12,084 nucleotides of DNA from Quisquiliibacterium sp. (GTDB lineage Bacteria > Pseudomonadota > Gammaproteobacteria > Burkholderiales > Burkholderiaceae_E). Within the stretch, counting starts at the first letter, position 1. The number at the start of each line of letters is the position of its first letter. A model generated the notes under the pieces. It saw nothing but the letters and a program-made list of their open reading frames with translations, was not told the origin of the DNA and ran no database searches. The stretch lies in contig JAURMJ010000192.1 of the NCBI GenBank assembly GCA_030830765.1, forward strand, positions 1-12,084, given 5' to 3'. The translations under genes and the position numbers were made by a program. Of the stretch, positions 5,042 through 5,776 are shown in pieces.

Positions 5042-5776
<735 letters not shown>

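Follow-up and report, generated by a model that had tools for sequence, protein, structure and literature searches.

The locus raises a plain question: has a stop codon inside a transporter gene disabled the receptor of the living organism, or does the stop belong to the assembly? The window analysed here, 12,084 nucleotides long, is the whole of one contig (C109) from a genome assembly that totals 2,629,163 bases, is spread over 441 contigs and is 72.17% complete and 2.46% contaminated. We give about an even chance to a recent null allele, namely an isolated nonsense change of very recent date in an invariant Tyr codon of an ordinary dctPQM uptake operon, and place this a little ahead of an error in the consensus or the assembly. 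The shares given to the readings throughout are judgements and were not computed, and a small remainder goes to explanations that did not occur to us.

One gene with one extra stop codon

The window reads GTT GAC TAA ATG GTC at 5768–5782, in the frame of an open reading frame that starts at ATG 5069. The in-frame TAA (5774–5776, codon 236) cuts the TRAP-transporter gene dctP (5069–6058, forward strand) into 235 and 93 residues: an N-terminal part of 235 codons, a TRAP periplasmic solute receptor (5069–5773), and a C-terminal part that resumes in the same frame at ATG 5777 and runs through 93 codons to the normal end, TAA 6056–6058. The N-terminal part matches positions 1–205 of PF03480 (E = 4.1e-86, 289.3 bits) and the C-terminal part positions 208–283 of 286 (E = 6.7e-19, 68.7 bits), both against a cut-off of 23.4. 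Since the two pieces match separate, non-overlapping stretches of the family, they represent one gene with one extra stop rather than two chance reading frames. Against TIGR00787 the N-terminal part scores 256.7 bits, over the cut-off of 175.05, and the C-terminal part alone scores 22.3, under it. The first-pass annotation, which had described these five codons within a single gene whose frame and motifs are complete on both sides, is borne out on both counts.

By eye, a Shine-Dalgarno-like GAGGAG lies upstream of the start, and the hydrophobic N-terminus resembles a signal peptide. In sequence, and in the joint length of the two pieces, the product is like the DctP receptors of TRAP transporters (PF03480, TIGR00787, solved relative 4o94), as it is in the gene order dctP-dctQ-dctM and in having a family match on both flanks of the stop; it differs from them by a single in-frame TAA where Tyr is invariant. 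A full length of 327–331 residues is found in 107 of the 120 homologues listed (the best 120 of 8,000 scored), whereas the window has, in place of a single unbroken frame of about that length, 235 residues, a stop and 93 residues. In a sequence alignment alone, 4o94 aligns with query residues 24 through 325, which suggests that the lost C-terminal part would belong to the mature domain.

The permease genes of the operon

Both permease genes are open, as had been claimed. The small permease gene dctQ (6088–6633, forward strand; PF04290, E = 4.2e-34) is unbroken and spans positions 1–130 of the 132 in its family, and the large permease gene dctM (6630–7907, forward strand; PF06808, E = 4.2e-130; TIGR00786, 503 bits against a cut-off of 268.45) is unbroken over positions 1–413 of 413. 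The gene upstream of them is placed among the DctP receptors both by family score (PF03480, TIGR00787) and by the adjoining dctQ and dctM. Across 32 related loci printed with flanks of up to 4 kb, several of them shortened by contig ends (L100 among them), dctQ follows dctP in all 32 and dctM is present in 30; the two loci that lack dctM (L103 and L126) are 5.6 kb long and end soon after dctQ.

Outside the operon, an amidohydrolase gene and a KDPG/KHG aldolase gene follow dctM in the window (8009–10455), and neither appears in the same 32 loci within those flanks. The ligase-like gene upstream in the window is shared with two of them, L100 and L104, at 79–84%.

Codon 236 among relatives

An aromatic residue had been expected at the site of the stop. 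This understates its conservation, as all 120 homologues listed (the best 120 of 8,000 scored) carry Tyr. At the DNA level we compared 110 related loci, 30 from a family-wide search and 80 from a wider collection, with some genomes present in both sets. A Tyr codon stands at position 236 in 108 of these (97 TAC, 11 TAT), one locus (L097) leaves the site uncovered and another (L071) is the window, so that a stop occurs in none of the 108 other loci that cover it. The family-wide search returned a dctP match at E 1e-60 in 29 of 74 genomes; among the 31 matches listed, only that of the window has a stop inside, and the 30 others (from 28 other genomes of the family) have none. The window thus has a frame-breaking lesion that is absent from its relatives, the pattern of a pseudogene or null allele. 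A search with the query for plasmid-borne copies gave 22 records, all in the 60–80% identity band and none covering 80% of the query.

The analysis supports the earlier proposal that one base change from TAT or TAC explains the TAA, in a gene that otherwise shows no decay. The first-pass annotation had added that a Tyr codon in close relatives would mark the stop as a sequence error. The comparison with relatives was made and the Tyr codon was found, yet it shows the ancestral state and does not by itself mark the TAA as an error. The collection searched, which may omit near copies of the window genome, yielded no second genome of the window's species. The nearest genome with the operon, G006, belongs to the same genus and shares 80% DNA identity across the operon, and is therefore of a different species. 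Within the genus, three of nine other genomes, some of them incomplete, have a dctP match at E 1e-60 (G001, G005 and G006). As dctP is patchy in the genus, its loss seems tolerable.

Among the related loci, L133 and L135 come from records titled as 'Klebsiella pneumoniae' metagenome-assembled genomes, and their dctP genes are 74–75% identical to the Burkholderiales-type gene of the window, which suggests that these records are mislabelled.

Soundness of the rest of dctP

No other frame lesion was found in dctP. We counted as near-invariant those columns in which at least 118 of the 120 listed homologues are identical, and the window departs from 3 of 151 such columns (35, 236 and 313), in keeping with the claim that no other decay is visible. 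Relative to G006, dS is 0.97 in the N-terminal part and 0.96 in the C-terminal part, and dN/dS is 0.08 and 0.17, respectively, compared with 0.15 for dctQ and 0.06 for dctM. These low dN/dS values and the like dS of the two pieces indicate that the C-terminal part was under constraint until very recently. Over its 93 codons, dN/dS is 0.165 between the window and L015, 0.178 between the window and L016, and 0.089 between L015 and L016; to L017 it is 0.387 for the window, 0.260 for L015 and 0.304 for L016. The window values are higher throughout by small margins; over so few codons they may hint at a slight relaxation of constraint, but are too small to carry a conclusion.

A possible recent null allele

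Under the reading that we prefer, a Tyr codon at position 236 would have become TAA by a recent single change, provided that the base call is correct, and the result would be a null allele at the level of the population, with no programmed process involved. Translation would stop after 235 residues, and the last 93, part of the family domain, would be missing. The truncated receptor would probably not work, and the transporter would be left with open dctQ and dctM genes but no functional receptor.

The earlier suggestion that another binding protein might serve the intact DctQM gains no support from the search of the genome for further dctP genes. This search gave 12 other DctP matches, of which seven align locally with the window DctP at 26.5–40.5% identity and the remaining five give no alignment to it at E 1e-3; no close paralogue that could act as a substitute receptor was found among the 12, in a genome of which about a quarter is missing. 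A fresh loss of the receptor and a sequence error are what remains of the four readings first offered, this one and readthrough (below) being unsupported.

Pseudogenes and null alleles with a single nonsense codon are a known kind among bacterial transport genes. The window is like them in having one point lesion, the rest of the gene and operon intact and a patchy distribution in the genus, and differs in that the lesion is known from a single assembly. If real, the allele adds another case of an uptake system switched off by one point mutation in the receptor gene with the permease genes spared; if not, it warns against inferring a lost function from a single codon of a draft genome assembled from a metagenome. 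In both cases the finding is ordinary and opens no new question. In the parts of the literature seen on TRAP and DctP pseudogenes, DctP structures, Quisquiliibacterium and metagenome errors, nothing was found on such a case.

Against a null allele stand the fragmentary assembly, in which single-base consensus errors are to be expected, and a database protein, P0001, which shows that contigs of mixed species, or recombinants, occur at this same place. The absence of other decay in dctP, moreover, is just as compatible with an error.

A possible consensus or assembly error

We therefore weigh with some care the reading in which consensus calling or assembly put a false TAA into a metagenome contig and the living organism has an intact dctP, to which we give somewhat less than an even chance. 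Consensus errors are a known kind of fault in metagenome-assembled genomes, and this case is like them in presenting an isolated stop, in a fragmentary draft (the 441 contigs and the completeness given above), beside a stretch that a related species has in common with it. The lesion is single and stands alone in a conserved gene, and the base directly after the stop begins a stretch of 29 bases identical to G006 (5777–5805, forward strand, by ungapped comparison), the only run of at least 15 identical bases between window and G006 from 5515 to 5923. Either an assembler or recombination could cross from one template to the other there.

P0001 also speaks for an error. This protein, the best homologue of the window's receptor, is from ENA, where its longest contig is 1,670 bases and its cluster has five members. 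It carries Tyr at 236, and it departs from the window at 26 of the 235 residues before codon 236 and at none of the 93 after it, whereas from P0002 it differs at one residue before residue 247 and at 20 from 247 on. Its N-terminal part is thus P0002-like and its C-terminal part identical to that of the window, with the switch within residues 216–246 (for DNA comparisons G006 served as a stand-in for P0002, from which it has 12 protein differences). Among the best 120 of 1,275 matches listed for the C-terminal part, no other full-length protein has an identical C-terminal part, and the next after P0001 is P0002, 82% identical there. As judged from these protein comparisons, P0001 would be either an assembly chimera of two species or the product of natural recombination; if the former, the two species co-occur in some sample and assembly at this place in the gene can go wrong. 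However, the Tyr of P0001 may stem from its other parent, in which case it is no proof of an intact allele in this organism.

Two further observations weigh against an error. First, we searched six Pfam families across the window's own genome, as a sample rather than all genes, with stops read through and counted, and found no in-frame stop beyond that of dctP in 182 family matches covering 40,610 codons, so that nonsense errors do not pervade the assembly; in this respect the case differs from consensus errors of the known kind. These matches comprise 12 DctP, 16 DctM, 28 AMP-binding, 10 Aldedh, 62 ABC and 54 SDR; six score under the family cut-off, some pairs come from a single protein, and the window itself contributes three (dctM, the ligase and the SDR). 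Second, the like dS to G006 in both pieces gives the window contig no chimeric look. A chimera joined at the stop is in any case unsupported on these values (0.97 and 0.96) and on GC3, which is 0.78 and 0.85 in the two pieces.

Unlikely readings: readthrough and restart

Far less probable than either of these is that a genuine TAA is decoded as an amino acid, through a suppressor tRNA, recoding or programmed readthrough, with a full-length receptor made; we consider this very unlikely, and the earlier mention of readthrough found no support. The C-terminal part is indeed still conserved and in frame, but the site holds no stop in any of the 120 listed homologues, the 108 covering loci or the 30 other matches of the family search, TAA terminates lig, eda, minD and dctP itself, and the 182 other family matches are free of in-frame stops. 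Recoding of TAA is rejected on this stop usage, the six-family genome scan and the absence from relatives. Among the tRNA genes that ARAGORN found at the 26 tRNA loci no anticodon for UAA was seen, and hence no suppressor tRNA, in a tRNA set that is itself incomplete, with tRNA-Tyr also missing, from a genome that is 72% complete. It is equally improbable that a real TAA is tolerated by readthrough at a useful rate or by cooperating chains, as a stop-controlled receptor limited to this lineage.

Least probable of all is that ribosomes halt at the TAA and restart at the adjoining ATG 5777, with the two chains forming a split receptor: the ATG does follow the stop directly, but Met 237 is the family residue (115 of 120 listed homologues, with Leu in the other five), and the ATG is therefore most likely older than the stop; moreover, by eye, no Shine-Dalgarno-like stretch lies upstream of 5777, and the second chain lacks a signal peptide and would remain cytoplasmic when the first was exported.

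Short C-terminal DctP fragments occur elsewhere in the databases. We found 36, of which 11 start exactly at the Met after codon 236 (P0129, P0131, P0133, P0135, P0137, P0138, P0141, P0143, P0145, P0151 and P0154); the rest start at residue 190 (seven), 203 (four), 222 (four), 175 (three) or elsewhere (seven). The longest contigs for the 11 are all under 4 kb, and these fragments probably reflect gene callers that moved on to the nearest start beyond a contig edge or frame break. A recurrent nonsense change at codon 236 is the disfavoured reading of them, as contig edges could explain such starts on contigs of this size. A few of the other DctP fragments are on contigs of more than 100 kb; these could be genuine breaks, or could sit at the ends of their contigs.

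In the genome of G005, dctP falls on two contigs, C118 (L097) and C357 (L099), parted between residues 182 and 186, and each piece sits at a contig end; this is another assembly break within dctP.
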